Origin: Myxococcales bacterium 68-20
Lineage (GTDB): Bacteria > Myxococcota_A > Polyangia > Polyangiales > Polyangiaceae
Direction: 5' to 3'
Length of the DNA: 64,000 bases
Assembly (NCBI GenBank): GCA_001899635.1
Contig: MKVQ01000041.1
Span: 124,001-188,000, forward strand
The position numbers and the translations under genes are program-made. Of this stretch, positions 18,464 through 56,410 are shown piece after piece (position 1 is the stretch's first letter; each line of letters begins with the position of its first letter). The notes under the pieces were generated by a model, which was not told the DNA's origin, made no database searches, and saw only the letters and a list, made by a program, of their open reading frames with translations.

Positions 18464-19216
18464 TCACTCTACACGACATGCGTCGAGGATGCGCGCCCAG
18501 AGAGGGCCTCGACCGTCGCCGGTCTCCGCGCTCGTGGCGACGACCTCGAGCCGTTCGCCGTCGGGGCCCTGCGCCAGCTTGGTGAGGGCCGGCTTCTGCG
18601 CCGAACGGGAGAGCTTGTCGATCTTCGTGGCCGCAATGATGATGCGAATGCCCGGACGCTCGGCGAGGAACTCGACGAGATCCGCCTCCTCCTGCTCGAG
18701 CCCGCGCCGGATGTCGACGAGGATCACGACGGCGCGAAGGGTGGGCCGCTCGTGGAGGTACCCCTCGAGGAGCTGCTTCCACGCGGTCGCCTCGCTCTTC
18801 GAGACCTTCGCGTAGCCGTACCCGGGCAGGTCCGCGAACACGATCCGCGGCGGCGCCTCGAAGCGCTCGCTCGCGGCGAGCTGGATGTCGAAGAAATTGA
18901 TCTGCCGCGTGCAACCGGGCGTGCCGCTCGTGCGAGCGAGCCCCTTCCGCGACAGGATCATGTTGAGCAAGCTCGACTTCCCGACGTTCGAGCGCCCTGC
19001 AAAGGCGATCTCGGGAGCCTGCTCGAAGTGTGTCACGGACGGCACCTGATCGCGCCGTGCCGCGCCGGCCGCGAACTCCGCCTCCGCGACGCGAACACCG
19101 CCCTCTCCCTTGCCGGGCTTGGCCGGCCCGGCCTTGGCGGTCGTGGGCTTGGTGGTCCTCGACTTGGCGGTCGTGGGCTTGGCAGTCGCGGACTTGGCTT
19201 TTTGCGGTTGAGCCAC
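18464..19216 (-). CDS. engB: Ribosome-biogenesis GTPase EngB/YihA
   Basis: The start is GTG 19216 with AGGA four bases upstream; an in-frame ATG further upstream lacks such a site. The protein has about 250 residues. A ~50-residue Lys/Ala/Thr-rich N-terminus is made of near-repeats (AKPTTAK, TKPTTAK). The TrmE-Era-EngA-like GTPase follows: G1 GRSNVGKSS (about 73-81), G2 with Thr in SGTPGCTRQINFF, G3 DLPGYGYA, G4 TKID and G5 TSAETG. EngB assists late 50S assembly. The basic tail is an unusual extension for the family and may bind RNA. Confidence 0.93.
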   Translation of the reverse strand: MAQPQKAKSATAKPTTAKSRTTKPTTAKAGPAKPGKGEGGVRVAEAEFAAGAARRDQVPSVTHFEQAPEIAFAGRSNVGKSSLLNMILSRKGLARTSGTPGCTRQINFFDIQLAASERFEAPPRIVFADLPGYGYAKVSKSEATAWKQLLEGYLHERPTLRAVVILVDIRRGLEQEEADLVEFLAERPGIRIIIAATKIDKLSRSAQKPALTKLAQGPDGERLEVVATSAETGDGRGPLWARILDACRVE

Positions 19217-19454
19217 GGGATCCTTCTCGCCTTCCGCCTTACAACTGCGGCCTCCGAAGGGCCAGCAATTCGGACGGGAAGCGCCTCCCGGCACCTCGAT
19301 TCATCAGCTGGCCGCGTGATGGACGGACGACCTCCGGACGGCTCGGTCGGACCGATCAACCTCTTCGACAGGTTCGTTCGGCTCGGGCGCGCGCGGCGGT
19401 CGAGCCGAACGGAAGCCACGCCCGCTCGTCGTCCTCGACGAGCGTGAGCCGGCG

Positions 19455-20171
19455 TCAGGTCCCTCCGTCCGCCTTCGCGCCGCCGCACTGGCGGAGGATC
19501 GATCCGTCGACCGCGTACGTGCCAATCAAGCACGTCCTCGCGATCGCCTCCGGATCGGGCCCGCACTCCACGAGGTAATCGTTGGACGGCTCGTTGCAGG
19601 CGCCTCCTTCGTCACGCGCCGCCGAGGTGCAGGCCTGAATCTCCGAGTCCGAGCAGGCCCCGCAGGCCGTCTCCACGCAGGTATTGACTGCGTGAAACGC
19701 CTTGCCGCACGACGTCTTTCCGCTGACCACCGCGAAGCAGCCGCCGACGTTCTGGACGTATTCGTCGCTGCCCATCGCGACGATCGGCGCCCACGTGTCG
19801 CCGTCGGCCCCGAAGATGCACGCAGCGCACTCGGGATTGCGTTGCTTCACCAGCTGCTCGACCTGCGAGATCGAGACCTTCAGCCGCACCGTAGAGGAGA
19901 AGAACGCGCGATCCTCGTCCGTGCACGCCCCCGGAACGACCCTCGGCGGCTTGAACGGAAGTCCCGAGACGTCGACCTTCTCCGTCTTCGCGCACGTATC
20001 CGGCTCGCCAATCCCCGATGGAACGCCTCCCTTGTTGCCACCCTCGCCACTGCCTGCGTCCGCCGAGGCAACGCTCGTAGTGTCGGAAGAACATCCGACC
20101 ATTCCGACCGCGGATACGAGGCTCGCGAAAGCCGTGACACACGCAAGCGCAAACAAGTTTCTCTCGACCAT
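19455..20171 (-). CDS. Cys-rich lipoprotein of unknown function
   Basis: A 238-residue protein with a signal peptide and lipobox (GMVGC, Cys about 27), then a Ser/Asp/Gly linker. The ~170-residue domain has about a dozen Cys, including CAACIFGADGDTW, CVETACGACSDSEIQAC and ARTCLIG. Such Cys-rich lipoproteins are common at the myxobacterial surface. It lies 153 bp downstream of the IgGFc-binding-like gene on the same strand, so it may be the last gene of that operon or have its own promoter. Confidence 0.72.
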   Translation of the reverse strand: MVERNLFALACVTAFASLVSAVGMVGCSSDTTSVASADAGSGEGGNKGGVPSGIGEPDTCAKTEKVDVSGLPFKPPRVVPGACTDEDRAFFSSTVRLKVSISQVEQLVKQRNPECAACIFGADGDTWAPIVAMGSDEYVQNVGGCFAVVSGKTSCGKAFHAVNTCVETACGACSDSEIQACTSAARDEGGACNEPSNDYLVECGPDPEAIARTCLIGTYAVDGSILRQCGGAKADGGT

Positions 20172-20324
20172 ATCGATCTCCTGCTGTCCCCGCCCACGCC
20201 GCGACGAGGCCTCGCGATCGCGCGACCTCTCGAAGACGCCCGCATGGCTGTATTACCGCGGGGGTCGACGCTCATGACGTGAGCGTCGACCACTGTGAGA
20301 GCTTCGTTTCGGTGCGCTCGAGAT

Positions 20325-22130
20325 TCAGCGAATCGGCAGCTCGAACGACGTCGACCTGCGCAAGCCCATGCCGCCCGGATACGCGTAGCTGGCGCAGTTG
20401 CCGATCCCCCAGACGGTCATCGTGAAGGGACCTTCACTGGTGATGTGATGAGGACCGTCGGCGCACGTTCCACCCGGATAGGTCATCGGCTCCCACTGGC
20501 GAGAGAGCTCGACGTACGTCCACTCGTAGTCGTCGGTGATGCGCTCCCAGTCCCCGATCGCGCCGGAGCAGTCGAGCTTCACGTCGTGGAACACGCCGTT
20601 CGTTCTCTGGCGGGTCACGACGACGACGCTCCGTTGATACGTGTAGTCGGAGAAGAACCGGTACGAGTCGAGCCACTGCCGCGTCGGGACGTTCATCACG
20701 GTCTCGGGATCGCCCAGGGACTGATTCGTCGTCAGGGTCGCCGTGCCCGTCATCGCGGTCACCACGAAGAACGGGTGATCGCGATCTTGGCTTCGCACGA
20801 CGAACGGGTTGTTGGTGAAGAATCGGACCTCCTCGCCCGAGCGGAGCGTGCTCGGCGCGCCGACCGGCTGCAAGGGGTCGTAGACGAGCTCCGTACCGTC
20901 AGCAGCTCCCACGATCCTGATGACGCTGACGTCTTGCGAGCGATCCGACCGGGTCCCCGCGATCCGCGCGCGATCCGGAGCGGGCAGCACGGCGTATTCG
21001 CTCCCCCACGCCGAGAGCGGCGGGATCTGCTTGTTCTCGCTGTCGACGTACTGCACGCCGACAGGGAGCTGGATGCCCGTGTGTCCGCCGAACACGCCGA
21101 CCGGCTTGTCGCTCTCGAGCACGGAGCCCACGAGCTCCTTGTTCTGGATGATCTGCAGGACCTGGCCGCGCTGAAGCTGATAGGTCGCGACCTCGTTGGC
21201 CGAAGCGGCCGCAACTCCGCCGCCGCCGACGATGTCGACCTTCGGCAAGAGCTTGACCGACGTCTTGTCCTCGACCGCGACGATCTGCACCGTGGGCTTG
21301 CCCGGCTGAAGCCCGAACGTGTCGTTGAAGACGCCTCGACCGAAGACGTCGTCCTTACCTCCCCACGAGCTCACGAGGACGTAGTTGTTGCGAAAGGACG
21401 TCGTCGGAAGGAGCAGCGTGGCGCTCGGGGTGAAGCTCGCTGCGCCGCCATAGGGGAAGATCGAGTACATCGAAACGGGAACATCGGTGCTGGCAAAGAT
21501 CGCCGTTCCGATGGTGGTGACCGGACTGGTCAGCGACTTGTCGAAGATCGGAGTGACGCCCGCAGGGCAGCGAACCGCCGTGCTGCCTTCGACGACCTCG
21601 TTCGAGACGAACACCACGGCACCGCTCCCGGGCGGAATCGGGCCTTCGAGCTTCTTGTGGGTCACCTTGCCGTCCTCGACGACCGGAATCCACAAGGCCC
21701 CGTCGAGCGGCATGTCCTGCCCCTTGTGCGTGACGCGGACGGTGGCCGGAGACGTCCAGTCGTTCGCCACGAAGAACGCCGCGCAGCCTCCGCGCTGAGC
21801 ATCGCCGTCGACGGCAGCCGTCACCGCGAACGAACAGCCGAGCGACCCTTCGTTGGCGGCCGCCGCGTCACAAGGCGCGATGCACTCGCCGTTTCCGCAC
21901 GCCTTGTCGGCCGGACATTCCGTGACGAGATTGCCGTCGCAGTCTCGTACGGAGCGGAGGTCACGCGAGCACACGTGCCCCGAGCATTCGGGCTCGGCGG
22001 CGTCCGGAGTCGTCCCCGCATCGTCCGGAACCAACACCTCGGGCTTCGTCGTGAACTCTTCTCGACCGGAGCTGCACCCCACCCACCCAGCCGATCCGAC
22101 GAATAGAAGACAGAAGAGCTGCCTACGCAT
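20325..22130 (-). CDS. IgGFc-binding-like surface lipoprotein
   Basis: A 601-residue protein with a lipobox (AGWVGC, Cys about 19) and an Asp/Ala/Pro linker. A Cys-rich segment (about 48-90: CSGHVC, CDGNLVTECPADKACGNGEC) comes next. A large domain like the IgGFc-binding protein N-terminal family follows, with FVANDWTSPATVRVTHKG, VGVFGGHTGI and GSEYAVLPAP as landmarks. The family is beta-rich and widespread in secreted bacterial proteins, so the name does not imply binding IgG. It starts 24 bp after the RCC1 gene ends. Confidence 0.82.
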   Translation of the reverse strand: MRRQLFCLLFVGSAGWVGCSSGREEFTTKPEVLVPDDAGTTPDAAEPECSGHVCSRDLRSVRDCDGNLVTECPADKACGNGECIAPCDAAAANEGSLGCSFAVTAAVDGDAQRGGCAAFFVANDWTSPATVRVTHKGQDMPLDGALWIPVVEDGKVTHKKLEGPIPPGSGAVVFVSNEVVEGSTAVRCPAGVTPIFDKSLTSPVTTIGTAIFASTDVPVSMYSIFPYGGAASFTPSATLLLPTTSFRNNYVLVSSWGGKDDVFGRGVFNDTFGLQPGKPTVQIVAVEDKTSVKLLPKVDIVGGGGVAAASANEVATYQLQRGQVLQIIQNKELVGSVLESDKPVGVFGGHTGIQLPVGVQYVDSENKQIPPLSAWGSEYAVLPAPDRARIAGTRSDRSQDVSVIRIVGAADGTELVYDPLQPVGAPSTLRSGEEVRFFTNNPFVVRSQDRDHPFFVVTAMTGTATLTTNQSLGDPETVMNVPTRQWLDSYRFFSDYTYQRSVVVVTRQRTNGVFHDVKLDCSGAIGDWERITDDYEWTYVELSRQWEPMTYPGGTCADGPHHITSEGPFTMTVWGIGNCASYAYPGGMGLRRSTSFELPIR

Positions 22131-22154
22131 GAAAGACCTTCCTCGCTCGCCCCG

Positions 22155-23519
22155 TTACTGGAACACCACCGGGCCGGGCGCGTGGAGCTCCACGTCGCGA
22201 GCCCCGCGTCCGAGCTGACCGAGGAGGTTGTCTCCCCAGCACGTCACCGCGCCGCCTCGCAGAAGTGCGCACACCGATCGGTCCATCACGCCCAGCGCGA
22301 CGGCCGCTTCCGTCAGCCCGTCGATACGACGGGCGCTCGGCTGATCGACTCCCGCGGATCCGCCGACCTGCCCGCCGCCGTTCGCTCCCCAGCAGTGCAC
22401 GTCACCGCTCGACGCGATGATGCACGTGTTGTCGCCGCCCGCCGCCACGTCGACCGCGAGCACGCCCGACGGCAGGACCGCGCGGAGCGGGAGTGGCTGG
22501 TCTGCCACCGTCCCGGAGCCGAGCTGCCCATGCTCGTTCTTCCCCCAGCAATGGACCTGCGCGCGCCGGAGCGCGCACGCGTGCGAGGAGCCTGCAGCGA
22601 CGCGCGAGACCTCCGAGAGCGCGATCGGCGTGGGGACCGGATCACGCGTCAGCGACGAGAGCCGCCCGAGCGTCTCGAGCGTGGCCCCGCCCCACGATAG
22701 GAGCTCGCCGTTCGCGGAGACGACGAAGCTCGTCGTGGACGTCCCGGCGCACGATCGCGGCGTGAAGGAGATGCTCTCCGCTGGCGCCGGCGCGCTCGCC
22801 ACGCCAGCATCCACGGCGGTCGGGCGTGCGAGCTGATAGCCTTCGTTTGCTCCCCACGACCAGAGACGATCGTCGGTGCCGATCGCGAACGCGAACGTGC
22901 CGGCCAGCGTCACCGACTTCGCGCGGACGTCGGCGAGCTCGACGGCTTCGGGATGAGGCGTCGTCGAAGGCGCCTCGCCACGTCCGAGCTGGCCCGACGC
23001 GTCGGAGCCGAAACAGGACACGCTGCCACTGCCGGACACGACGCACGAGGTGCCGCGGTCCCTGTCGCCGCTCGCCGAGAGACCGACGGCGCCGGAGATA
23101 CCCGGTACTTCGGTCGGAGCGGCGACGAACACCGGCATCGCGCCGGCACCGTCGCCGGATTTGCCAACCTGTCCGAACGCGTTGGCCCCCCAGCAACGGA
23201 CGGAGCCCCCTCGGAGAATGGCGCACGCATGCGAGCCGCCGCGCGCGGCGAGTCGCGTGACGCAAGGCGCAGCCGTGCACTTCACCTCGAAGTCGTAAGG
23301 CGGAGTCTCGACCTCCACCTCACCACTGTCGATCCCTCCATCCGCCTCGGGCGTGCTCGAAGCATCGGGCTCGGTTGCTGTCTGCCCCGCGTCGCTCTCG
23401 GGGACCGGAAATGGCGAATCGTCGTTCGACGAAGAACAGGCGGTCATGGCAAGCGCCACGAAGGCCGGGGGCAGGAGCGGCCACCACGCGCGTCGAAGGA
23501 GAAGTCCTCGTGCGATCAT
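22155..23519 (-). CDS. RCC1-repeat lipoprotein
   Basis: A 454-residue lipoprotein (lipobox ALAMTAC) with an acidic linker and then a seven-bladed-propeller-type array of RCC1 repeats. The clearest blades read CAILRGGSVRCWGANAFGQVG, HACALRRAQVHCWGKNEHG, TCIIASSGDVHCWGANGGG and CALLRGGAVTCWGDNLLGQL. These Cys-containing CWG repeats are typical of secreted bacterial RCC1 proteins rather than Ran exchange factors. The ATG overlaps the stop of the upstream gene as ATGA (23516-23519). Confidence 0.88.
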   Translation of the reverse strand: MIARGLLLRRAWWPLLPPAFVALAMTACSSSNDDSPFPVPESDAGQTATEPDASSTPEADGGIDSGEVEVETPPYDFEVKCTAAPCVTRLAARGGSHACAILRGGSVRCWGANAFGQVGKSGDGAGAMPVFVAAPTEVPGISGAVGLSASGDRDRGTSCVVSGSGSVSCFGSDASGQLGRGEAPSTTPHPEAVELADVRAKSVTLAGTFAFAIGTDDRLWSWGANEGYQLARPTAVDAGVASAPAPAESISFTPRSCAGTSTTSFVVSANGELLSWGGATLETLGRLSSLTRDPVPTPIALSEVSRVAAGSSHACALRRAQVHCWGKNEHGQLGSGTVADQPLPLRAVLPSGVLAVDVAAGGDNTCIIASSGDVHCWGANGGGQVGGSAGVDQPSARRIDGLTEAAVALGVMDRSVCALLRGGAVTCWGDNLLGQLGRGARDVELHAPGPVVFQ

Positions 23520-24751
23520 GGCGTGGGTCCCTTCAGCGCGAAGCCGTTACCGACGAGCCAGCTCTCCGCCCCGTTGCCATGAATGCCGAATACTTCGCGC
23601 GGGACGAAGTCTCGGCCCATCGCGACCGAACCGGGCGTGAACGCGCTCCCGTTCCAGCGCATGATCTGGATGTAGACGTACGGTTCGGAGAACGGCAAAA
23701 GCACGTTGCTCCAGTCTTTCGCCCACATCGGTTGGCGCGGCGGAGGCACTGCCTCGGTTCCGTTCCACGACGTACGCCCGTTTGGCACCGAGAGCTCGTT
23801 CAGCCGGATCGGCGAGCTCGGCCCGAGCCGCATGTTCCTCCCTTTGAGGTCGAACCGGTCGTAGTAGGGGTTCCCGCTGTAGAGGTAACCGAAGAGGAAG
23901 ATCCGATCGCTCTCACTCGGCGCATCGGTGACCTGCGCGGACACCGGAACGAATCCCTTCACGGCGGTCGTCGTCGGCAGCGCCGCGTTGAACACGGTGG
24001 CGCCGTCCGCGGTGAGCTCGAGAACGTACGGGTAGCGGTTCGGAGGCTTGGCGACCGCCAATGGCGCCGGCGGGCCGTTGACGTAGCCCGCCGCGTAGGT
24101 CGCGGAGGGCCCGCTGAAGACGGTCATCACGCGAAGGTCGGCGATGTCGATCGGATGCGGGCGCAGCGCCGTCCCGTCGTAGTGGTCGACGTGCCCATCG
24201 TCGCTCGAGAACCAAACGTCGGCGTCACCCCTCCCGGAGATCGAGCGAAGGTTCGACGTATGCCCCGTCTCGACGAGACTCCACTTCCCCGCCGCGTTTC
24301 GATTCAGGAGGAGCCCGAGCTCGCCGCCGACCCAAACGCTCGTAGCCGTGGCCCATACGACCGAGAGCGCGTGGTTCGCACGGAACTCCGTCTTCCAAGC
24401 GGCGCCGTCGTAGTGGAGCACCAAGCCGTCGGCGCTCACGCTCCAGACGTCGTTCGAGGCAACGACCCAGACGCTCTGGAGCGAGAGGGGCAGACCGGTC
24501 TCCGACGCAGGCAGCTTCGTCTCGCAGAAGCCCGCGTCACCGCAGATGAGCGGTCGCTCCGCGTCGGGAACGCCCGCATCCGGTATCGGATCGACCGCCG
24601 TTGCGTCCTCTTCCTCCACGCCCCCGGCGTCGACGACCGGAGCTCCGCCGTCCTCGCCGGCATTCGGGCTGGGCGGATCCTCGGCTCCGCTGGCGGAGCA
24701 GGCCGCGATCGTGGCGAGCAGCGCCGCCGCTGCATGGCTCATGTACCTCAT
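23516..24751 (-). CDS. Propeller-like lipoprotein B
   Basis: From ATG 24751 (GGGGAG seven bases upstream) the protein has 411 residues. A signal ends in a lipobox-like IAAC, then an Asp/Glu/Pro-rich linker. The body has repeats of the type seen in YCF48/beta-propeller proteins: SLQSVWVVASNDVWSVSADG, VLHYDGAAWKTEF, SVVWATATSVWVGGE, and LRSISGRGDADVWFSSDDG with VDHYDGT. Function unknown. The repeats match those of the gene upstream, so the two are likely duplicates. Both its ends are ATGA overlaps. Confidence 0.78.
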   Translation of the reverse strand: MRYMSHAAAALLATIAACSASGAEDPPSPNAGEDGGAPVVDAGGVEEEDATAVDPIPDAGVPDAERPLICGDAGFCETKLPASETGLPLSLQSVWVVASNDVWSVSADGLVLHYDGAAWKTEFRANHALSVVWATATSVWVGGELGLLLNRNAAGKWSLVETGHTSNLRSISGRGDADVWFSSDDGHVDHYDGTALRPHPIDIADLRVMTVFSGPSATYAAGYVNGPPAPLAVAKPPNRYPYVLELTADGATVFNAALPTTTAVKGFVPVSAQVTDAPSESDRIFLFGYLYSGNPYYDRFDLKGRNMRLGPSSPIRLNELSVPNGRTSWNGTEAVPPPRQPMWAKDWSNVLLPFSEPYVYIQIMRWNGSAFTPGSVAMGRDFVPREVFGIHGNGAESWLVGNGFALKGPTP

Positions 24752-25923
24752 GGAAGTGCTCCCCAGTGGAACAGCCCAGCATCGCCCCCGAACCACACGT
24801 CGTCGGACGCCCCTCCCCAGACGGCCCTCAGCGTGCCGTCATGGCCAGTAGCGACGGACGACCACTGCGCGCCGTCGAAGTGCAGCGCCGTCCCGCCCTC
24901 TCCGACAGCCCAGATGTCGTTCGGCGCGATGCCGAAGACGGCATGGAGCGTCGACGTCGTCCCGGTGTCGGCAAGATCCCACGACGCTCCGTCGAAGTGA
25001 GCGACCGTCCCATTCTCGCCGACGGCCCAGAGGTGCTCGTCGTAGCCCCAGGCCGCGCGGAGGCTCACCTGCGATGCGACCGGCACCATGACGCCTCGTT
25101 CGAGGCTCGGGGCCCCCGCATCATTCGATGACGACACGGCATAGCGAGCCACTGCCGCGCGATCGCCGACGAGCCAGAGCGCCTTGCCGGGCACGAGGTG
25201 GACCGCACGCACGCCGAGCTCGGTCTCCGGCTGGTTGCTCAGCGGATTGAGGGCATCGGGCTGGTAGGTGACGCTCGCGGAGTCCGGGTCGACCTTCCCC
25301 AGGTACTTCGCCTTGTAGTACGCGAAGGACGTAGCGCCGGGCGCGAGCCCGAGGAACACGTCCCCGCTCGGCATCACCGCGACGCCGGCGATGGCACGGT
25401 AGTTACTGGTGCCCTCGACCACCTCCTTGATCCGTGCGGTACGCACCGTATCGGCGGCGAGGCCCCTTCGCAGGACCAGCGTACCCGCGGTGGCCCACAT
25501 CGCATCGGGCGTCAGGAACATGCTGGTGAACGTCTCGTTGACGCTCGACTCGAGCGCGCTCCAATCGCTCCCGTTCCAGTGCAAGACCGCACCGCGGGAG
25601 CCCGTCGCCCAGACATCGTTCTTCGAACGCCCGTTGATGGCGGCGACCGCGGCGGACGCGATTGGGCTCGTCACCCTGCAGATGTTCCCGACAGCGCACG
25701 GCACGACCGCGACCTCGCCGTCGCTGTCCGAGCCATCGAGCGACGGCCCCGCATCGTCCGACGGGATGATGGCGCTTCCGTCTTCCTCGGGCGGAGTCGT
25801 GTCTTCCGAGTCGGCACACGCCGCGATGGAGAGAACGGAGAGGATCGTGAGGGCGGCAAGGCCTGATACCGAAGCCAACGGAAGGGTGTGCCTGAGCCGA
25901 CGCAAAAGGGATTCAGGCTTCAT
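24748..25923 (-). CDS. Propeller-like lipoprotein A
   Basis: From ATG 25923 the protein has 391 residues. Its long hydrophobic signal ends in a lipobox-like SIAAC, followed by an acidic Ser/Asp linker. Propeller-type repeats include AAINGRSKNDVWATGSRG, VLHWNGSDWSAL, LRAAWGYDEHLWAVGENG, HAVFGIAPNDIWAVGEGG and LRAVWGGASDDVWFGGDAG. It is paralogous to propeller-like lipoprotein B downstream. ATGA overlaps join it to both neighbours, suggesting fixed stoichiometry. Confidence 0.78.
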   Translation of the reverse strand: MKPESLLRRLRHTLPLASVSGLAALTILSVLSIAACADSEDTTPPEEDGSAIIPSDDAGPSLDGSDSDGEVAVVPCAVGNICRVTSPIASAAVAAINGRSKNDVWATGSRGAVLHWNGSDWSALESSVNETFTSMFLTPDAMWATAGTLVLRRGLAADTVRTARIKEVVEGTSNYRAIAGVAVMPSGDVFLGLAPGATSFAYYKAKYLGKVDPDSASVTYQPDALNPLSNQPETELGVRAVHLVPGKALWLVGDRAAVARYAVSSSNDAGAPSLERGVMVPVASQVSLRAAWGYDEHLWAVGENGTVAHFDGASWDLADTGTTSTLHAVFGIAPNDIWAVGEGGTALHFDGAQWSSVATGHDGTLRAVWGGASDDVWFGGDAGLFHWGALP

Positions 25924-27122
25924 TTTGCAGTGGTCTCCGGTCCGCCCTCGCACGGCGCGACGAGGCACTTGCCCTCTGCGCAGACCTGACCGGGCGCGCA
26001 CGCGCTTCCGCACGCGCCGCAGTGACGGCTATCGATCCGGAAGTCGATCTCGCATCCGTTGTCCGGCAGCCCATCGCAGTCGGCGTAGCCCGTCTCGCAC
26101 TTGCCGCCGCAGACCCCTTTCGTACAGGTCGCGGCGTAGTGTGGTGAGAAGGTGCCCGGACAGACGTTGTTGCACGCACCGCAGTTCGTCGGATCCTGGT
26201 CGAGGACCTGACACGTATCCCCGCAGAGCGTCTCGCTGTCGTCCTCGCAGGTGCAGCGGTAGACGTTGCCGTTTCCCAGCAAGCATTGTTTGCCGGGTGC
26301 ACACGTGTCACCGCAATACCCGCAGTGCTCGTTCGTATGGAGCGTGGCCTCGCAGCCATCGCTCTTGTCACCGTTGCAGTTCGCCTTGCTCGGATCGTTG
26401 CACTTCGAGGCTCCGCACTTGGCGCCCGAGCAGCCGTAGTGCATGTCGCTCGGCAACGCGGGCAAGTCCGGTCCTGTCGGGTCGCAAACGTTCCCGCAGC
26501 CGCCGCAGTTGGCGTCGTCATAGTTGAAGTTCGTACAGACGAAGTCGCCGCAGGAATCCGGCATGCCGGCGTACAGGCCCATCAGGTCGCAAAGCGAGAA
26601 GCATTGGCCGAGCGTGCAGGACTTCCCAGCCGGACAGGCGTAGCCGCAGGCACCGCAATTGTTGGCATCGAAGAGCGTGTTGACCTCACAGCCGTTGGTG
26701 GGGTCGTTGTCGCAATCCGCTCCCTGAGTGCCAGGGCCGAGATCGGCATTGCCGCAGGCGAACGTGCATTTGCCTTCGACGCACCTCCAGTTCGAGTCGA
26801 ACGCGCCGCCACAACGGATCCCGCATCCTCCGCAATTCTCGTTGTCGTTCAGCAGATCGACGTCACACGGGAACGCGGACGTCGAGCACGTCGCGCGCGG
26901 AGCCGTGCACGTCGTGACCGGGCACATCGGGCCGTCCTCCGGCGTCACCGCCGCGGCGTCGCTCCCCGCATCCGGCGACACGAAACCGATGTCGTCGTTG
27001 CAGAAGCCCCGCTCGCAATCCTGTCCGACGAAGACGTCCCTACCGCTACTGCATGCGGAGGCCGCGATGATCGACAGAACGAGGGTGGCGGCCCAGCCGA
27101 GGCGAGAGAGAGAGAGGTTCAT
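25920..27122 (-). CDS. Cys-rich repeat lipoprotein
   Basis: A 400-residue lipoprotein (lipobox ASAC) with an Asp/Ala linker and then about seven Cys-rich modules of the form NENCGGCGIRC...C..GKC, for example ANNCGACGYACPAGKSC, HCGYCGDTCAPGKQC and RHCGACGSACAPGQVC. NCGxCGxxC modules of this kind are frequent in myxobacterial surface proteins and probably form disulphide-stabilised rods. It is the first lipoprotein gene after the sigma-factor pair, joined by ATGA overlaps on both sides. Confidence 0.85.
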   Translation of the reverse strand: MNLSLSRLGWAATLVLSIIAASACSSGRDVFVGQDCERGFCNDDIGFVSPDAGSDAAAVTPEDGPMCPVTTCTAPRATCSTSAFPCDVDLLNDNENCGGCGIRCGGAFDSNWRCVEGKCTFACGNADLGPGTQGADCDNDPTNGCEVNTLFDANNCGACGYACPAGKSCTLGQCFSLCDLMGLYAGMPDSCGDFVCTNFNYDDANCGGCGNVCDPTGPDLPALPSDMHYGCSGAKCGASKCNDPSKANCNGDKSDGCEATLHTNEHCGYCGDTCAPGKQCLLGNGNVYRCTCEDDSETLCGDTCQVLDQDPTNCGACNNVCPGTFSPHYAATCTKGVCGGKCETGYADCDGLPDNGCEIDFRIDSRHCGACGSACAPGQVCAEGKCLVAPCEGGPETTAK

Positions 27123-27886
27123 TTCGCAGCCTTCGTGATGGAGTCGCCCGCGCAGCTCGCCTCGACACGGCGTGTGAGCGGGCTCTTCGGGCGGCTCTGG
27201 AGGAACACCGTTGCCTCCTTCTCCGCCTCGGCGCGGCGACCGAGGCTGCAGAGGACGACGATCCGCTCGGCGGCTCGGTCAGCGGCGAACCAGCCGTTCG
27301 GGAACAGCCTTGCATGCTCGGCGAGGCGCGCCAGCGCCTTGTCACCGTCACCATGCTCGAGGGCGAGTCGCGCATCGGTGATGAGGCGCGCCTCCTGCTG
27401 CAGCGTATCGCTCGATGCCCCGGCCGGTGCGGTCGCCGGCGCGTCCCCAGCGGTGATCGCTGCGGACGACTTCTTCGACGGAGCGCGCGTCGACGGAGGG
27501 ATCTCGGCGACGCTCGGCAACGAGTCGACCGAGACCGAAGGGACCGCGACCACGGGCTCCGTCTCCTGCGCCGCCTCGCTCGGCGGCACGACGGCCATCG
27601 GTGACGCCACGGCGGACGGGGCGATGACAGGAGGAGCCTCGACTCCGGACGAGAGATGGATGCTCACACCGACGAGCGCCAGCGCCGCGCATGTCGACCC
27701 GAGGAGGAGCGACAGCTTGCCGGTGCCGCTCCGGGCAGTGGCGGATACCGGCGACGTCGTGCCAGCATCTTGCGAGTACGCCGTCTGGATCTTGGAGAGG
27801 ATGCGGTCGGCCCCCTCCTTCGTGAGCTCGTACTGATCGGCGAGCGGCGCGAGGAGGGACGGCTTCTTCTCGGGTTCGAGGCTCAT
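27119..27886 (-). CDS. Transmembrane partner of the ECF sigma factor
   Basis: From ATG 27886 the protein has 255 residues. A short cytoplasmic N-terminus (about 1-50) is followed by one membrane helix (LSLLLGSTCAALALVGVSI) and a Ser/Pro/Val-rich linker. A helical TPR-like C-terminus (DARLALEHGDGDKALARLAE, then GRRAEAEKEATVFLQ) ends the protein. Position and topology suit an anti-sigma factor, but no zinc HxxxCxxC motif is seen, so this is inference. ATGA overlaps couple it to the sigma factor and to the Cys-rich lipoprotein. Confidence 0.72.
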   Translation of the reverse strand: MSLEPEKKPSLLAPLADQYELTKEGADRILSKIQTAYSQDAGTTSPVSATARSGTGKLSLLLGSTCAALALVGVSIHLSSGVEAPPVIAPSAVASPMAVVPPSEAAQETEPVVAVPSVSVDSLPSVAEIPPSTRAPSKKSSAAITAGDAPATAPAGASSDTLQQEARLITDARLALEHGDGDKALARLAEHARLFPNGWFAADRAAERIVVLCSLGRRAEAEKEATVFLQSRPKSPLTRRVEASCAGDSITKAAK

Positions 27887-28581
27887 TTGTATCTCCAGCC
27901 GTCGCGTGCGCGACGTCTGCTCAGTGCGGCCTCGACCTGCTCGCGCGCGAGGCGCAGCCGGCTCGTGGCGGTGCTTGCATTGATTCCCAAGATCACGGCG
28001 ATCTCGCTGAGCGGCTTCTCCTCCAGCTCCGCGAGGACGAGCACTGCGCGGCGCTCGGGCTCGAGACCGTCGAGGATTTCCTCGAGGATGCGGACGTTCT
28101 CGTTGTTCTCGGCACGTCTGTCCGGAGCCGCCTCCATGGCGCCGGGCAAGACCTCCAGGTCCACACCGTCCTCGGTGCGAGAGCTCCGGCGTTGGTTGGA
28201 TCTCCGGTTGTGTTGAACGACACGGAAGAGAATGGAGAAGAGCCAAGCGCGCTCCGAGCCGATCTCCGGATACGAACCGGTCAGCCGGAGCGCCCTCAGG
28301 AAGGTCTCCTGCACGACGTCGTCGGCCTCGGCCGCAGGCACGCCGAGTCGACGCGCGCTCGTCCACACGTACCCGACGTGGGCACGGTAGAGCTCGATGA
28401 AAGCTCGTGACGTCGGGTCGCTTGCTTCGCGAATGGCCACGCTCGAACTGCTCGCGGCGGCGCTCGGAGGAGGTGTCGGCACGACGTCGGGTTCGAGAGC
28501 GAAGGCCCGATCGGCGCGGAGATGCCCGCTCCAAGAAAGACTCATCGGGCTATAGCTCCCGGGACCGCCGTCTTTCATCAC
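27883..28581 (-). CDS. ECF-type sigma-70 factor
   Basis: A 232-residue protein with an unstructured ~55-residue N-terminus (the true start may be the Met in SPMSLSW). Region 2 covers about 60-125 (FIELYRAHVGYVWTSARRLG, DDVVQETFLRAL). Region 4 covers about 165-220 (LDGLEPERRAVLVLAELEEK, SEIAVILGINASTATSRLRL). It should direct RNA polymerase to its own class of promoters, presumably including the one before this operon. The next gene overlaps it as ATGA. I could not identify its promoter motif. Confidence 0.92.
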   Translation of the reverse strand: MMKDGGPGSYSPMSLSWSGHLRADRAFALEPDVVPTPPPSAAASSSSVAIREASDPTSRAFIELYRAHVGYVWTSARRLGVPAAEADDVVQETFLRALRLTGSYPEIGSERAWLFSILFRVVQHNRRSNQRRSSRTEDGVDLEVLPGAMEAAPDRRAENNENVRILEEILDGLEPERRAVLVLAELEEKPLSEIAVILGINASTATSRLRLAREQVEAALSRRRARDGWRYK

Positions 28582-28699
28582 GAAAAGGACGGGCGCGACG
28601 TAGCTCCGACGTCCGGATGAGCTTCGTCGCCGCGCTACAGCGGCGCTCGAGGGCGACCGGCGAGCGGGCTCGGCCCCGTGCGCTCAGGGCCCGGTGCCG

Positions 28700-29743
28700 T
28701 CAGCGAAAGACGACCGCAACGCCGAGGCTCAGACGAGGCGACGCTCTGCCCGGCGAATGGAGGCGAACCGCCTCCCCGGCCGTCGCGGTCGCGAGCGAGA
28801 ACCTCGGAGCGTCGATCGGAAGGAGCAGCTCGGCCGCCGCAAAGAGGCTGAGCCACTTCATTGCGCGGGCCTCGACTCGGCCACCAAGCGCGGGCGTCAA
28901 CCATACGGCGGACGTCTCCCACGGCTGCCGGATGCCGAAGCCGCGAGCCCGGACGTGCGTCGCCGCGACGCTCACGCTGGGACCGAACGCGAAGACACCG
29001 ACCGGCACCATGTATCCGCCGAAAGCGCCCGCTTCGACCATGTCGAACGTGGCCCCTGCGCTCCGCTCGAAGCGCGCGTCCTGCGAGAGCGACACGGCCG
29101 CGAGCGCTCCGACACGGAACCGATCGATGCGAGCCCCGAGCGAGAGGACGGGCCCGACGCTCGCCTCCGGAAGCGGGCCCCACACCACGAACCCTCCGAG
29201 GCCGATCTCCGGGCGCACCAGCACGCTCGACGCGGCGGAGCGCCGTGGAGTCGACTCATCCTTCGTCGGCGCCACGGGCGGTGCCGACGACTGCTCCACA
29301 CGCGGTGACCCCGGCGGCTCCGGTGACGCGGGGGACTCCGGCGATGCTGGAGCGGGCACTTCGCTGCCGCGGAGCTCCTTGTTCGGATCGACGGTCGAGT
29401 CGATCGCGAGCGCGACGACGACGGCAAAGGCTTCGGCGAGCGTGCTGCAGGAGGCGGCGTCCACCGTCCGGACATCCTCGACGTCGCCCGTGCGTACGGC
29501 CATCGCGAGGCGAAACCGGCCTTCGGGCAACGTCTCGATCCTCCCTGTCGCGACGGCGCTGGTCGGCTTGACGACCGACGCGCGAAGGATCTGCCCGATC
29601 CGACGGCGAACGCTCTCGGCCCCCGGACACGCCTCCGGCGCTTCCCACGTGAGCTCGAGCGGGAGCGGCGGCGGCTGTGCGCTCGCGAGACGCGACGTGC
29701 TCAGGATCGCGACTCCCGCGAGGGCCGACCACGCCTTTCTCAC
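28700..29743 (-). CDS. Exported, probably outer-membrane beta-barrel protein
   Basis: A 347-residue protein with a classical signal peptide (cleavage near SRLASA-Q). A periplasmic part (about 25-105) opens with LELTWEAPEACPGAE and a conserved Cys pair. A Pro/Ser/Glu linker (about 120-165) leads to a C-terminal region (about 170-347) of alternating amphipathic strands with Gly/Ala (IGLGGFVVWGPL, LSLGVAVVFR at the end), ending in Phe-Arg. It lies 118 bp upstream of the ECF sigma gene on the same strand, an arrangement that suggests one regulon. No T-run is seen between the two. Confidence 0.7.
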   Translation of the reverse strand: MRKAWSALAGVAILSTSRLASAQPPPLPLELTWEAPEACPGAESVRRRIGQILRASVVKPTSAVATGRIETLPEGRFRLAMAVRTGDVEDVRTVDAASCSTLAEAFAVVVALAIDSTVDPNKELRGSEVPAPASPESPASPEPPGSPRVEQSSAPPVAPTKDESTPRRSAASSVLVRPEIGLGGFVVWGPLPEASVGPVLSLGARIDRFRVGALAAVSLSQDARFERSAGATFDMVEAGAFGGYMVPVGVFAFGPSVSVAATHVRARGFGIRQPWETSAVWLTPALGGRVEARAMKWLSLFAAAELLLPIDAPRFSLATATAGEAVRLHSPGRASPRLSLGVAVVFR

Positions 29744-29824: not shown

Positions 29825-31453
29825 TTACCGCCGACGCAATCGGCGCCGGATCGGCGCCGCGACCTCGGCGAGCTCGTGCGCCCCGAGCCCCCACGCCGAG
29901 GTGAGGAAGAGGACGCCGAACAGGACCGCCGACGCGAGGCCCGGCAGCGCTCGCCCGATGCTCCCAGGCACCGCGCCCGTGAGCAGGTACGCCAGCGCTC
30001 CGCTCGCTGCCCCCGCGATGGCCGACGCCGCGAGCACACGCACGCCGGACGCGGCGATCTCGCCACCGCGGAGCGAGCCGAGCCGTCTCCGGAGGCCGAC
30101 GAAGAGGAGGACCATCTGCACCGCGCTCGAGCCGGCAACGGCGACGCTGATCCCGACGTGCCCGAGCGGGCCACGCAGCGCCAGCGCCAGAACGATGAAC
30201 GCGACGAGGTCGATCGCGCTCACGACGACGGGCGTGCGCGTGTCACCGAGCGCGTGGAACGCGGGAACGAGCTGCCGCGTTGCTGCCACCGTGAAGATCG
30301 CCCCGCCCTGCCATGCGAGCGCGCGCGCCGTCTGGTGCGACGACTCGGGATCGAAGTGCCCGCGCTCGAAGAGCAACACCACGAGCGGCTCGCCGAGAAC
30401 GACGAGCGCGACGCTGCACGGGATCGCGACGAACATCGCGAGGCGCATGCCGTGGGCCCAGGTCGTGACGAGCTCGTCGGTCTCGTTCTTCGCGGCAAAG
30501 GTCGCGAGCGACGGGAGCGTCGCGCTCGAGATCGCCATCACGAAGATCCCCTGCGGGAGATCGCATAGGCGCGAGGCCCACGAGAACCAGCTCTGAGCGC
30601 CCTCGCCGAGCTCGGAGAGGAAGCGGCGCGAGAGGACGAGGTCGACGTAGTAGACCCCGAGACCGAACGTCATCGGGAGGATGCGCTTGAGCATCTCCCG
30701 CACGTGCGGGTCGCGAAAATCGAAGCGCGGAAGCGACGCGTAGCCGATCTTGCGCAGCGCCGGGATCTGCGCGACCACCTGCATCACGCCCCCGGCGAGG
30801 ACGCCGATCGCAAGCGTCATCGCGGGATCGATCCCGCGCTCGGCGAGCGGCTCGCGGAGGAGAAACGCAGCGCCGACGATGCCGACGCTGAAGAGCGCAG
30901 GCGCGAACGCGGCGACGGCGAAGCGCCGCTTCGCGTTGAGCGCGGCCATCCCGAGCGCCGCCGTCCCCATGAAGAGGATGTACGGGAACATCACGCGCGT
31001 CAGGCTGGTCGTGAGCTCGAACTTCTCACCACCGGAGTACCCGGACGCGAAGAGCCACGTGAGCTCGCGCGCGAACACGATGCCGAGGAGGGTGACGACG
31101 AGGAGCGCCACGATCGAGACGCCGCGCGCGCGGGCGAAGAACGGCCGCGCGACCTCGTCACCGCCCTTCGCGAGCCGCTCGCTGAGGACCGGCACGACCG
31201 CGCTCGACACGGCGCCCTCGGCGAGGAGCTGCCGGAGCGCGTTCGGGATCGTGAGCGCGACCCAGAACGCGTCGGTCTCGCGTCGCGTGAAGAGCGCGGC
31301 GATGACGGCGTCGCGGCCGAAGCCGAGGATGCGAGAGAGGAGCGTTCCGGCGCCGACGATGCCGGCGCGCCCGACGATCTTCTCGCGCTCCTTGCTCCCC
31401 TCGCTCGCGGTCGACCCGACGGCGCGCGGCTCGGCGCGGTCCGGCTCGGTCAT
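29825..31453 (-). CDS. murJ: Lipid II flippase MurJ
   Basis: A 542-residue protein of the MOP superfamily with about 14 membrane helices. MurJ signatures are clear: a short cytoplasmic N-terminus, then GTLLSRILGFGRDAVIAALF, RETDAFWVALTIPNALRQLLAEGA, an Arg in FPYILFMG helix 4, and YVDLVLSRRFLSELGEGA. It moves lipid II across the inner membrane for peptidoglycan synthesis. It starts three bases after the stop of the DUF971 gene, so the pair is probably cotranscribed. The C-terminus is basic (RRRLRRR). Confidence 0.93.
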   Translation of the reverse strand: MTEPDRAEPRAVGSTASEGSKEREKIVGRAGIVGAGTLLSRILGFGRDAVIAALFTRRETDAFWVALTIPNALRQLLAEGAVSSAVVPVLSERLAKGGDEVARPFFARARGVSIVALLVVTLLGIVFARELTWLFASGYSGGEKFELTTSLTRVMFPYILFMGTAALGMAALNAKRRFAVAAFAPALFSVGIVGAAFLLREPLAERGIDPAMTLAIGVLAGGVMQVVAQIPALRKIGYASLPRFDFRDPHVREMLKRILPMTFGLGVYYVDLVLSRRFLSELGEGAQSWFSWASRLCDLPQGIFVMAISSATLPSLATFAAKNETDELVTTWAHGMRLAMFVAIPCSVALVVLGEPLVVLLFERGHFDPESSHQTARALAWQGGAIFTVAATRQLVPAFHALGDTRTPVVVSAIDLVAFIVLALALRGPLGHVGISVAVAGSSAVQMVLLFVGLRRRLGSLRGGEIAASGVRVLAASAIAGAASGALAYLLTGAVPGSIGRALPGLASAVLFGVLFLTSAWGLGAHELAEVAAPIRRRLRRR

Positions 31454-55351: not shown

Positions 55352-56410
55352 ATGACGACGATTGGGCAGCGCAAGGCAGATCATCTCGCGCTCTGCGCGA
55401 CGGACGAGGTCGCGTTCAAGAACAAGTCGACGCTGCTCGAGCAGGTGCGCTTCATCCATGATGCGCTCCCGGATCTCGATGCGGACGCGCTCGACCTCTC
55501 CGCACAGGTCCTCGGCAAGACGCTCCGCGCCCCGATCGTGATCGCGGCGATGACGGGCGGCACCGAGGAGGCGGCGCGGGTGAACCGCGAGCTCTCCTCG
55601 ATCGCGGAGGAGCGCGGCTATGGCTTCGGTCTCGGCAGCCAGCGCGCGATGCACGTGCGTGCCGAATCGACGCCCACGTACGCCGTTCGAGAAGGCGCCC
55701 CGACGACGCTGATCCTCGGGAACATCGGGGTCGTCCAGGCGCGTGAGATGAAGACGGAGGACGTGCTCGCGCTCGTCCGAGGCGTCGGCGCCGATGCGCT
55801 CTGCATCCACTTGAACCCGGCGATGGAGCTCGTGCAGCCCGGAGGCGATCGTGACTTCCGCGGCGGGCTCGACACGATCCGGCGGCTCGTGCAGGAGCTT
55901 CCCGTCCCCGTCATCGTGAAGGAGACGGGCTGCGGTCTGTCGAGCCACGTCGGCAAGCGGCTCGTCGAGGCGGGCGTCCGGCACGTCGACACCTCGGGCG
56001 CCGGCGGAACCTCTTGGGTCGCCGTGGAGACCAAGCGCGCCGAAGCCGCCAGCGACATGACCGCCCGCGCGCTCGGCGAGGCGTTCTGGGACTGGGGCAT
56101 CCCCACCGGCGCGTCCGTCGGGGTGCTCGCGCCGCTCGGCTTCGATACGGTCATCGCGACCGGTGGCATCATGACGGGGCTCGACGTGGCCCGCGCCATC
56201 GCGCTCGGCGCGCACGCCGCCGGCATCGCGCGCCCTGCGCTGAAGGCGCTCGTCGCGGGCGGAAGAGCTGGGGCGGTGCGCTTCTTCGAGAGCGTCGAGG
56301 ACGAGCTGCGCGCGGTGATGCTCCTCACGGGGAGCTCGAACGTCGCGGCCCTGAGGAAGGCCCCCCGCATCGTGGGCTCCGAGCTGCGCGCCTGGCTCGA
56401 GCACGCCTGA
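55352..56410 (+). CDS. fni: Type 2 isopentenyl-diphosphate isomerase
   Basis: A 352-residue FMN-dependent isomerase: RKADHLALCATDEVAFKNKS near the start, APIVIAAMTGGTEEAARVN, FGLGSQRAM, LHLNPAMELVQPGGDRDF-like substrate/metal motif (about 150-165), and VKETGCGLS. DTSGAGGTSW binds the FMN phosphate. It interconverts IPP and DMAPP, complementing the divergent mevalonate operon. Start ATG 55352 follows GGAGGG about 15 bp upstream. Confidence 0.95.
   Translation: MTTIGQRKADHLALCATDEVAFKNKSTLLEQVRFIHDALPDLDADALDLSAQVLGKTLRAPIVIAAMTGGTEEAARVNRELSSIAEERGYGFGLGSQRAMHVRAESTPTYAVREGAPTTLILGNIGVVQAREMKTEDVLALVRGVGADALCIHLNPAMELVQPGGDRDFRGGLDTIRRLVQELPVPVIVKETGCGLSSHVGKRLVEAGVRHVDTSGAGGTSWVAVETKRAEAASDMTARALGEAFWDWGIPTGASVGVLAPLGFDTVIATGGIMTGLDVARAIALGAHAAGIARPALKALVAGGRAGAVRFFESVEDELRAVMLLTGSSNVAALRKAPRIVGSELRAWLEHA

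Follow-up and report, generated by a model that had tools for sequence, protein, structure and literature searches.

Paralogous sigma factor-lipoprotein operons of a Polyangiaceae bacterium appear to combine two modules with separate histories

Introduction

Surface proteins encoded together with a dedicated extracytoplasmic function (ECF) sigma factor are found in the ECF sigma/anti-sigma SusC/SusD loci of Bacteroidota, many paralogous operons that each encode an ECF sigma factor, a membrane partner, an outer-membrane barrel, and surface lipoproteins. The FecA-FecR-FecI system consists of an outer-membrane barrel with a periplasmic domain, an inner-membrane protein, and an ECF sigma factor. 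Cassette-based surface variation is represented by vlsE, pilE/pilS, and vlhA; in vls and pilE/pilS, one expressed locus is accompanied by silent cassettes. The subject of this work is an operon found in a 64,000-nucleotide stretch of the genome of Myxococcales bacterium 68-20, a member of the Polyangiaceae (GenBank assembly GCA_001899635.1, contig MKVQ01000041.1, positions 124,001 to 188,000; referred to below as the window). It encodes a predicted outer-membrane barrel protein (B), an ECF-type sigma factor (S), a predicted single-pass inner-membrane protein (T), and five predicted lipoproteins, namely, a Cys-rich rod (C), two propeller-like proteins (P1 and P2), an RCC1-repeat protein (R), and an IgGFc-binding protein (I). 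Comparison of its paralogs shows that the operon is bipartite, with a head (B, S, T, and the signal peptide of C) and a cassette (the mature part of C, P1, P2, R, and I) that have been exchanged against each other.

The operon resembles the SusC/SusD loci in its many paralogs, each with its own ECF sigma factor, membrane partner, outer-membrane barrel, and surface lipoproteins, but differs from them in the 8-strand-type barrel, the five lipoproteins of other families, and the recombination between head and cassette. No SusC-type receptor, SusD lipoprotein, or glycan enzyme was found among the nine operon proteins in Pfam and NCBIfam (the wider neighborhood was not tested). As in FecA-FecR-FecI, a barrel with a periplasmic domain, an inner-membrane protein, and an ECF sigma factor form one co-inherited block; however, B is modeled as a barrel of OmpA/NspA size, without a Pfam match, and not as a TonB-dependent 22-strand receptor with a plug, and the T proteins match tetratricopeptide repeat (TPR) families rather than FecR. 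As in vlsE, pilE/pilS, and vlhA, surface parts are exchanged behind another upstream part, with the border near the start of the surface gene, but there is no single expression site: 109 complete operons have their own sigma heads, and the cassette comprises five genes. Single parts of the operon are homologous to the MXAN_6577-like Cys-rich protein (NF041328), PF17517, and RCC1 families; in the loci and genomes of other genera that were examined, PF17517 genes occur without this operon or, in 2 of 95 cases, near a T gene. None of the systems compared shows all of its defining features here, and each half of the operon resembles known kinds. Among the literature matches listed, there was no description of such an operon family (subscription papers were mostly outside the search) and no paper joining ECF sigma factor, myxobacteria, and RCC1; PF17517 appeared in one paper, on a mussel.

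Results

Copy number and gene order

A PF17517 search of the 11.9-Mb genome that contains the window returned 141 matches, of which 137 were complete or almost complete in length. The neighborhoods of all these matches were fetched (131 stretches, 1.87 Mb), and their open reading frames (ORFs) were searched with profiles built from the window proteins and their first matches. At E values below 1e-10, this search recovered 128 sigma, 118 T, 128 C, 254 propeller, 137 RCC1, 140 I, and 92 B ORFs. They form 109 complete S-T-C-P-P-R-I operons (76 BSTCPPRI, 21 STCPPRI, and 12 of the same with additions), and the remaining units are partial; B was detected upstream in 83 of the 109. The complete operons span 1.01 Mb, or 8.5% of the genome (10.0% for all genes of the operon families together), and are spread over 34 contigs, 56 on the plus strand and 53 on the minus strand, with 11 tandem neighbor pairs. 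The copies are well diverged: mean protein identity between them ranges from 0.22 for B to 0.46 for I, and the median identity to the nearest paralog is 0.46 to 0.68, depending on the gene.

These 109 complete, ordered copies rule out an ordinary single operon. They equally rule out homologs scattered without order, the outcome that the initial annotation had named as one that would speak against it: the S-T-C-P-P-R-I order is conserved in the 109 copies, and 23 further units were analyzed in a second species. The fetched neighborhoods contain 128 sigma genes from this family, a number that can be set beside the totals given in a 2015 review, 109 sigma factors in Sorangium cellulosum and “over 115” ECF sigma factors in Gemmata obscuriglobus (PMC4598750). 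The genome encodes at least 150 sigma-70-family proteins over the TIGR02937 cut-off (150 of the 280 candidates were scored, and the model also catches non-ECF sigma factors).

Head and cassette

Across the 109 operons, pairwise identities of B, S, and T correlate among themselves (Spearman coefficients of 0.33 to 0.37), as do those of C, P1, P2, R, and I (0.66 to 0.81), and the coefficients between the two groups are -0.01 to 0.10. The corresponding Mantel z values are 12 to 38 among B, S, and T, 22 to 27 among the cassette genes, and 0 to 3 between B, S, or T and the mature cassette. The nearest paralog by C, P1, P2, or R is also the nearest by I in 60 to 66 of 109 operons (60 for C); the nearest by S is the nearest by I in 3. 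The signal peptide of C shares its nearest paralog with S in 18 of 109 operons, with T in 18 to 23 of 109, and with B in 14 of 83, as against 6 of 109 for mature C and 4 of 109 for I, and therefore belongs with the head. This co-tracking of S and T does not separate a specific fit between the two proteins from linkage of their genes.

Trees were built with FastTree from quick MAFFT alignments, counting splits with its own supports of at least 0.9. The S-plus-T tree (64 supported splits) and the cassette tree (78) have a single split in common, and 63 of the 64 are contradicted. The separate S and T trees share 18 supported splits, and parts of the cassette share 34 to 39, with 9 to 16 contradicted. 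Simple duplication of whole operons is ruled out by this disagreement between head and cassette in nearest paralogs and trees.

The genome also contains rearranged and partial units. In C44:191787-201329, head parts and the cassette lie on opposite strands, head to head, with ∼300 bp between the starts of C and B; in C23:239222-248910, S-T is inverted inside the unit; and in the second species, loci L259 and L292 have head parts and cassette on opposite strands. These arrangements are inversions of one module against the other. Seven CPPRI units lack a same-strand head; one of them starts at a contig end and one adjoins an inverted head. A further RCC1 gene is located 3′ of I in 7 units (e.g., u14 and u122) and likewise in loci L285, L286, and L291 of the second species. 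Two PF17517 fragments at C48:255528-256006, each with an internal stop, represent a decaying I gene.

Borders of the cassette

When the operons were compared all against all by blastn, 50 pairs were found to have at least 2.5 kb in common at 74% identity or more; the top 30 of these were inspected as single rows. Ten pairs at 100% identity, all running to the end of the flank, were set aside as what we read as overlapping flanks of tandem neighbors, and 40 were kept. Most of these close pairs share ∼6.85 kb, from the linker after the C lipobox to the I stop codon, usually behind unrelated heads; the identity of S across all 50 pairs has a median of 0.32, equal to the background, and exceeds 0.5 in 6. 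The shared DNA begins 115 to 226 bp into C (median, 165) in 28 of the 40 pairs and otherwise in P2 (5 pairs), in R (5), upstream of the operon (1), or in a gap (1). It ends -16 to +86 bp from the I stop codon in 38 of the 40. The last 120 nucleotides (nt) of I carry 3 to 10 bits per 10 nt, as against 0.1 to 0.3 bits per 10 nt after the stop codon, and no conserved sequence after the I stop codon was found across the copies. The alignments place the exchange joint in the linker after the C lipobox, an Asp/Ala/Gly/Pro-rich segment that follows the lipidated Cys and precedes the first Cys block, and the far end at the I stop codon.

The second species

From a second species of the genus (G003), loci with 23 units containing S, T, C, P1, R, and I were fetched. 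The nearest paralogs agree between S and T in 15 of the 23, among cassette genes in 11 to 17, and across the modules in 1 to 3; the correlation of T with the cassette genes is reached by 34 to 208 of 500 permutations. When these units were compared with those of the first genome, a unit was taken as clear if each module had two or more reciprocal best hits (reciprocity being assessed within the fetched loci). In 5 of the 17 clear units, head and cassette match different operons of the first genome. L268 is the clearest swap: its head is like that of u104 (60% identity in B, 73% in S, and 50% in T) and its cassette is like that of u114 (80 to 90%). At the DNA level, the match to u114 covers 6,773 columns at 91.7%; it starts 148 bp into C and ends at the I stop codon, with nothing matching elsewhere. 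In turn, u104 matches from B to the C joint at 69.5% and beyond it only in pieces. L290 combines the head of u9 with the cassette of u118, with the same border as in L268; the u9 and u118 cassettes are themselves alike. In three of the five (L262+1, L275, and L293), the cassette matches are spread over two or more operons; the head of L293 is nearest to u92, and its C, P2, and I are nearest to u86, the window operon (49 to 61%, with small margins).

These cross-species matches bear on concerted evolution, in which gene conversion would homogenize the cassettes of one genome while the heads diverge, uncoupling both trees. Such a process has some groups of alike cassettes in its favor, three of them in one tandem array on contig C17, and for 20 of the 109 I proteins, the identity to a paralog exceeds 0.8. 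However, mean cassette identity within the genome is 0.30 to 0.46, yet the best-matched cassettes of the other species reach 80 to 92%, and most close cassette relatives sit on different contigs. Homogenization only is ruled out by this low identity within and high identity between species, and we consider concerted evolution a very unlikely explanation. The C17 array, starting at 56076, consists of four operons (u21, u20, u19, and u18), and in u19, u20, and u21 the I proteins are 0.74 to 0.82 identical and the S proteins just 0.28 to 0.39.

It is extremely improbable that misassembly, contamination, or poorly resolved trees mimic shuffling. The genome is a draft assembly of 52 contigs with 4.2% contamination, but the 109 diverged copies lie on 34 contigs, agreement inside each module is strong, and the pattern is repeated in the independent assembly of the second species.

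The operon in the window

The window copy is laid out as follows, from 5′ to 3′ on the minus strand.

28700 to 29743, minus strand: B, with signal peptide, periplasmic α/β domain (residues 29 to 115), Pro-rich linker, and predicted outer-membrane barrel (residues 176 to 345; eight strands by our count; structure predicted on paralogs); head module, by co-tracking with S and T.
28546 to 28590, minus strand: promoter-like element before S, with TTTTCGTGAT from 28586, then GCTATAGC, then ATG 28545; family motif CGATTTTgTGATcA.
27883 to 28545, minus strand: S, ECF-type sigma factor (PF04542, PF08281, TIGR02937), 220 aa from ATG 28545; the ORF is open to GTG 28581.
27119 to 27886, minus strand: T, predicted single-pass inner-membrane protein with a short cytoplasmic N terminus and a TPR-like periplasmic C terminus, a putative sigma partner (topology and TPR matches from paralogs; 4-bp overlap with S).
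27053 to 27122, minus strand: C signal peptide and lipobox (lipid Cys, residue 24); head by descent.
26928 to 27052, minus strand: C linker, rich in D, A, P, and S; predicted exchange joint, inferred from 28 paralog pairs and L268, not from the window copy itself.
25920 to 26927, minus strand: mature part of C, a Cys-rich rod with Stig1-type repeats (PF04885), first cassette gene; the first Cys block begins at 26927.
24748 to 25923, minus strand: P1, propeller-like lipoprotein (lipobox; weak Ycf48/Hyd_WA matches below cut-offs).
23516 to 24751, minus strand: P2, propeller-like lipoprotein (lipobox; one joint profile was built from P1 and P2).
22155 to 23519, minus strand: R, RCC1-repeat lipoprotein (PF00415, PF25390).
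20325 to 22130, minus strand: I, IgGFc_binding lipoprotein (PF17517; AlphaFold pLDDT 89); its stop codon is the 3′ cassette boundary.
19455 to 20171, minus strand: L, Cys-rich lipoprotein 3′ of I; accessory, found beside only 5 copies.
Neighbors, named from their translations: murJ, 29825 to 31453; engB, 18464 to 19294.

Four of the proteins have family matches over the cut-offs. S scores over the family cut-offs with PF04542 (46 bits), PF08281 (45 bits), and TIGR02937 (81 bits; cut-off, 42.9) and is a short protein with sigma regions 2 and 4; C, with 53 Cys in the whole protein, matches PF04885 (Stig1) at 36.6 bits (cut-off, 24.1), R matches PF00415 at 117 bits (cut-off, 21.7) and PF25390 at 195 bits, and I matches PF17517 at 281 bits (cut-off, 25.6). 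P1 has only weak propeller matches, under the cut-offs, in Pfam and NCBIfam, and B, T, P2, and L have no match in Pfam. The NF041328 model scores 83.9 bits, under its curated cut-off of 100 bits. Comparison of the I model with PDB gave no useful fold (best E value, 1.7e-4; probability, 0.21; TM, 0.11), which does not imply a new fold.

The gene arrangement is as initially annotated. All five 4-bp ATGA overlaps that chain S-T-C-P1-P2-R are present on the minus strand (S/T, 27886-27883; T/C, 27122-27119; C/P1, 25923-25920; P1/P2, 24751-24748; and P2/R, 23519-23516), the IgGFc-binding-like lipoprotein follows after 24 bp (R stop at 22155, I start at 22130), the further Cys-rich lipoprotein L lies 153 bp after the I stop, and the barrel-type protein placed upstream is B, predicted to be an outer-membrane barrel 5′ of S. 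The B stop (28700) is 118 bp from the S start if GTG 28581 is used and 154 bp if ATG 28545 is used; the conserved promoter-like element before the ATG favors the latter.

In our gene models of the 109 operons, the 4-bp overlap is found in 106 at C/P1, 107 at P1/P2, 85 at S/T, and 38 at T/C; for R and I, whose extra genes were counted too, the corresponding figures are 36 of 117 and 81 of 110 junctions. The overlapping start was taken whenever present within 150 bp of the start given by the profile. Given this rule, and since 79% of all TGA triplets in the window have A, G, or T in front of them (A in just 23%), the rates at T/C and P2/R may barely exceed chance. The C/P1 and P1/P2 rates are clearly above it; ATG is the start in 107 of 124 C/P1 overlaps and 95 of 123 P1/P2 overlaps. 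With five overlaps, the window operon is ordinary, as 57 operons have four, 29 have five, and 5 have six.

Regulation, topology, and localization

The motif CGATTTTgTGATcA precedes S in 86 of the 109 operons at a score above 4; in 45 of these 86, its position relative to the chosen S start is -45 to -41. This 14-base motif was fitted without a shuffle control; a 13-base version of the block scored 201, versus 86 and 76 for two shuffles. Nearest neighbors by promoter DNA agree with those by S in 20 of 109 operons and by T in 18, and with those by I, P1, and C in none. A second promoter block downstream of the first was weak (51, versus 23 for one shuffle) and had no fixed spacing, and a motif sought upstream of B was not clearly better than two shuffles. 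The promoter-like element before S fits the proposal of the initial annotation that the assembly is made on demand.

One strong membrane segment is predicted in 98 of the 109 T proteins, starting at residue 64 (median), and the N-terminal side is richer in Lys and Arg in 95 of these 98. T would be expected to act on S. Among 102 T proteins with Pfam matches, 22 match TPR_14 and 19 match YfiO. For B, AlphaFold prediction on 78 paralogs gave a pLDDT of 86; the modeled barrel (∼170 residues) fits the 8-strand barrels OmpA, NspA, and OmpW with Z of about 17 (Foldseek, VIA), and the N-terminal domain has middling matches only, with Z of about 8, of the ribosome-hibernation-factor type. The promoter tracks S and T, T has a membrane topology of this kind, and B combines a barrel and a periplasmic domain; these features make a putative envelope-spanning switch of B, T, and S plausible.

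The same parts could belong to a nutrient-capture repertoire, in which each operon would serve the uptake of, or attachment to, a single polymer or ion of its own and work in the manner of the SusCD loci that ECF sigma factors control in Bacteroidota. Re-pairing would then reflect drift or regulatory rewiring rather than selection for diversity as such. The ECF-type sigma factor, inner-membrane partner, outer-membrane barrel, coupled lipoproteins, and very many paralogs are common to the two cases. However, there is no degradative enzyme or TonB-type receptor among the nine operon proteins (genes further out were not examined for enzymes), and B fits small 8-strand barrels; we regard this alternative as unlikely.

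By the usual Lol rule, residue +2 of a lipoprotein is read for membrane sorting, Asp being the relevant residue. Among lipobox-bearing proteins, Asp occupies this position in 1 of 102 P2 and 2 of 100 R proteins and in none of C and P1; for I, with 103 such proteins, two residues are not shown. This suggests that the operon lipoproteins are sorted to the outer membrane.

Chromosomal place and distribution

Across six other genomes of the genus, the distance between the matched segments of MurJ and EngB is about 28, 32, 58, 1476, 1551, and 3167 bp, as against 10.5 kb in the window, and no operon was found in the murJ-engB interval in any of the six. The operon has therefore either arrived here as a unit or been lost in all six, and the simplest reading is that whole operons also come to occupy new places, such as this one. 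The closest MurJ proteins (85 to 86%) come from two Labilithrix records (L192 and L193), in which an antisense gene, hydrolase-like in our reading of its sequence, fills the MurJ-EngB gap.

One could regard the operon as mainly a selfish mobile element with surface genes as cargo. Its presence between murJ and engB here and absence there in relatives would agree with this, as would the lack of shared DNA past the ends of orthologous operons: four aligned orthologous pairs gave no blastn match of at least 150 bp outside the operons (own flanks of ∼1.5 to 4 kb), and few of the flanking ORFs are related, in a comparison limited by these short flanks. However, when flanking ORFs of at least 130 aa were clustered, the 14 largest clusters showed no recurrent recombinase, transposase, or integrase; the ORFs that do recur are, in our reading, operon genes of neighboring copies or their antisense shadows. 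No conserved ends were seen after I or before B. We consider a selfish element very unlikely as the main explanation.

A first look at 183 genomes of the order gave 144 PF17517 candidates in the genome studied here, 47 in G003 of the same genus (46 matches in a full search), 22 in G033, and at most 17 elsewhere. Matches to the T family occur in 98 of 108 genomes across the taxonomic family, where the S-T head is therefore probably widespread. In G006, 9 of the 11 I genes listed above 290 bits are preceded by a same-strand T match at a distance of 4.9 to 6.8 kb, an arrangement like that of the window operon (coordinates read by eye). Among 95 I matches in eight genomes of other genera, 2 have T upstream on the same strand at a distance of no more than 8 kb (by eye, with up to 150 T candidates scored per genome), and four fetched loci of other genera (L295 to L298) have I without the operon. 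In G117, from outside the genus, a T gene directly precedes an I gene (C2:3025214-3027779), perhaps a simpler ancestral pairing.

Discussion

The exchange of heads and cassettes is well supported by the comparisons described above. Regulator and assembly are not a fixed pair, given that the operon joins two modules that differ in their history. The initial annotation described a tightly coupled operon; the coupling is real and the gene order is kept, but that description missed the more than 100 paralogs, the separate histories of the two modules, and the place of the barrel in the head module.

We favor, with moderate confidence, the explanation that these operons are more than 100 separately switched surface-lipoprotein assemblies diversified by exchange of cassettes between regulatory heads. 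Under this scheme, B (outer-membrane barrel and periplasmic domain), T (inner membrane, with periplasmic TPRs), and S would form an envelope-spanning switch, and free S would start transcription of its own operon at the promoter directly ahead of its gene. The five lipoproteins, coupled in the operon, would receive their lipid anchors and reach the outer membrane together as a single assembly. Cassettes moved behind other heads would re-pair the trigger with the displayed surface, so that more than 100 variant coats would be available, each under its own regulation. The switch mechanism and the surface location are inferred, and the most likely use of such coats would be in varying contact with phages, prey, or neighbors.

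Several observations weigh against this explanation. Of the 38 S splits, 11 are contradicted by T, and of the 64 splits of mature C plus P1, 16 are contradicted by P2 plus R, so that the modules are not strictly indivisible. The shared DNA begins in P2 or R in 10 of the 40 close pairs. In the second species, head and cassette match one and the same operon in 12 of the 17 clear units, and the correlation of S with the cassette genes is weak but not nil (Pearson coefficients of 0.17 to 0.20, reached by 2 to 8 of 500 permutations), that of T being weaker still. B was not found in 26 of the 109 units, for some of which the fetched flanks may be too short. No anti-sigma family (zinc anti-sigma, RskA, or FecR) is present among the 17 Pfam families matched by the 102 T proteins at E values up to 0.01, and the absence of a recurrent recombinase from the 14 largest clusters of flanking ORFs belongs here as well.

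A bolder proposal, which we consider quite unlikely, is programmed surface variation on the scale of operons. The more than 100 insulated sigma heads would be private channels, dedicated recombination at the C linker would move five-protein cassettes within living lineages, and sister cells would differ in their coat-signal pairing.

If the favored explanation is correct, about a tenth of a large bacterial genome would be devoted to one surface system of two recombining halves, with diversification acting on whole operons rather than on single surface genes. The family would then represent a natural experiment on how more than 100 related sigma factors stay separate and would offer ready head/cassette pairs for studying sigma-promoter and sigma-partner specificity.

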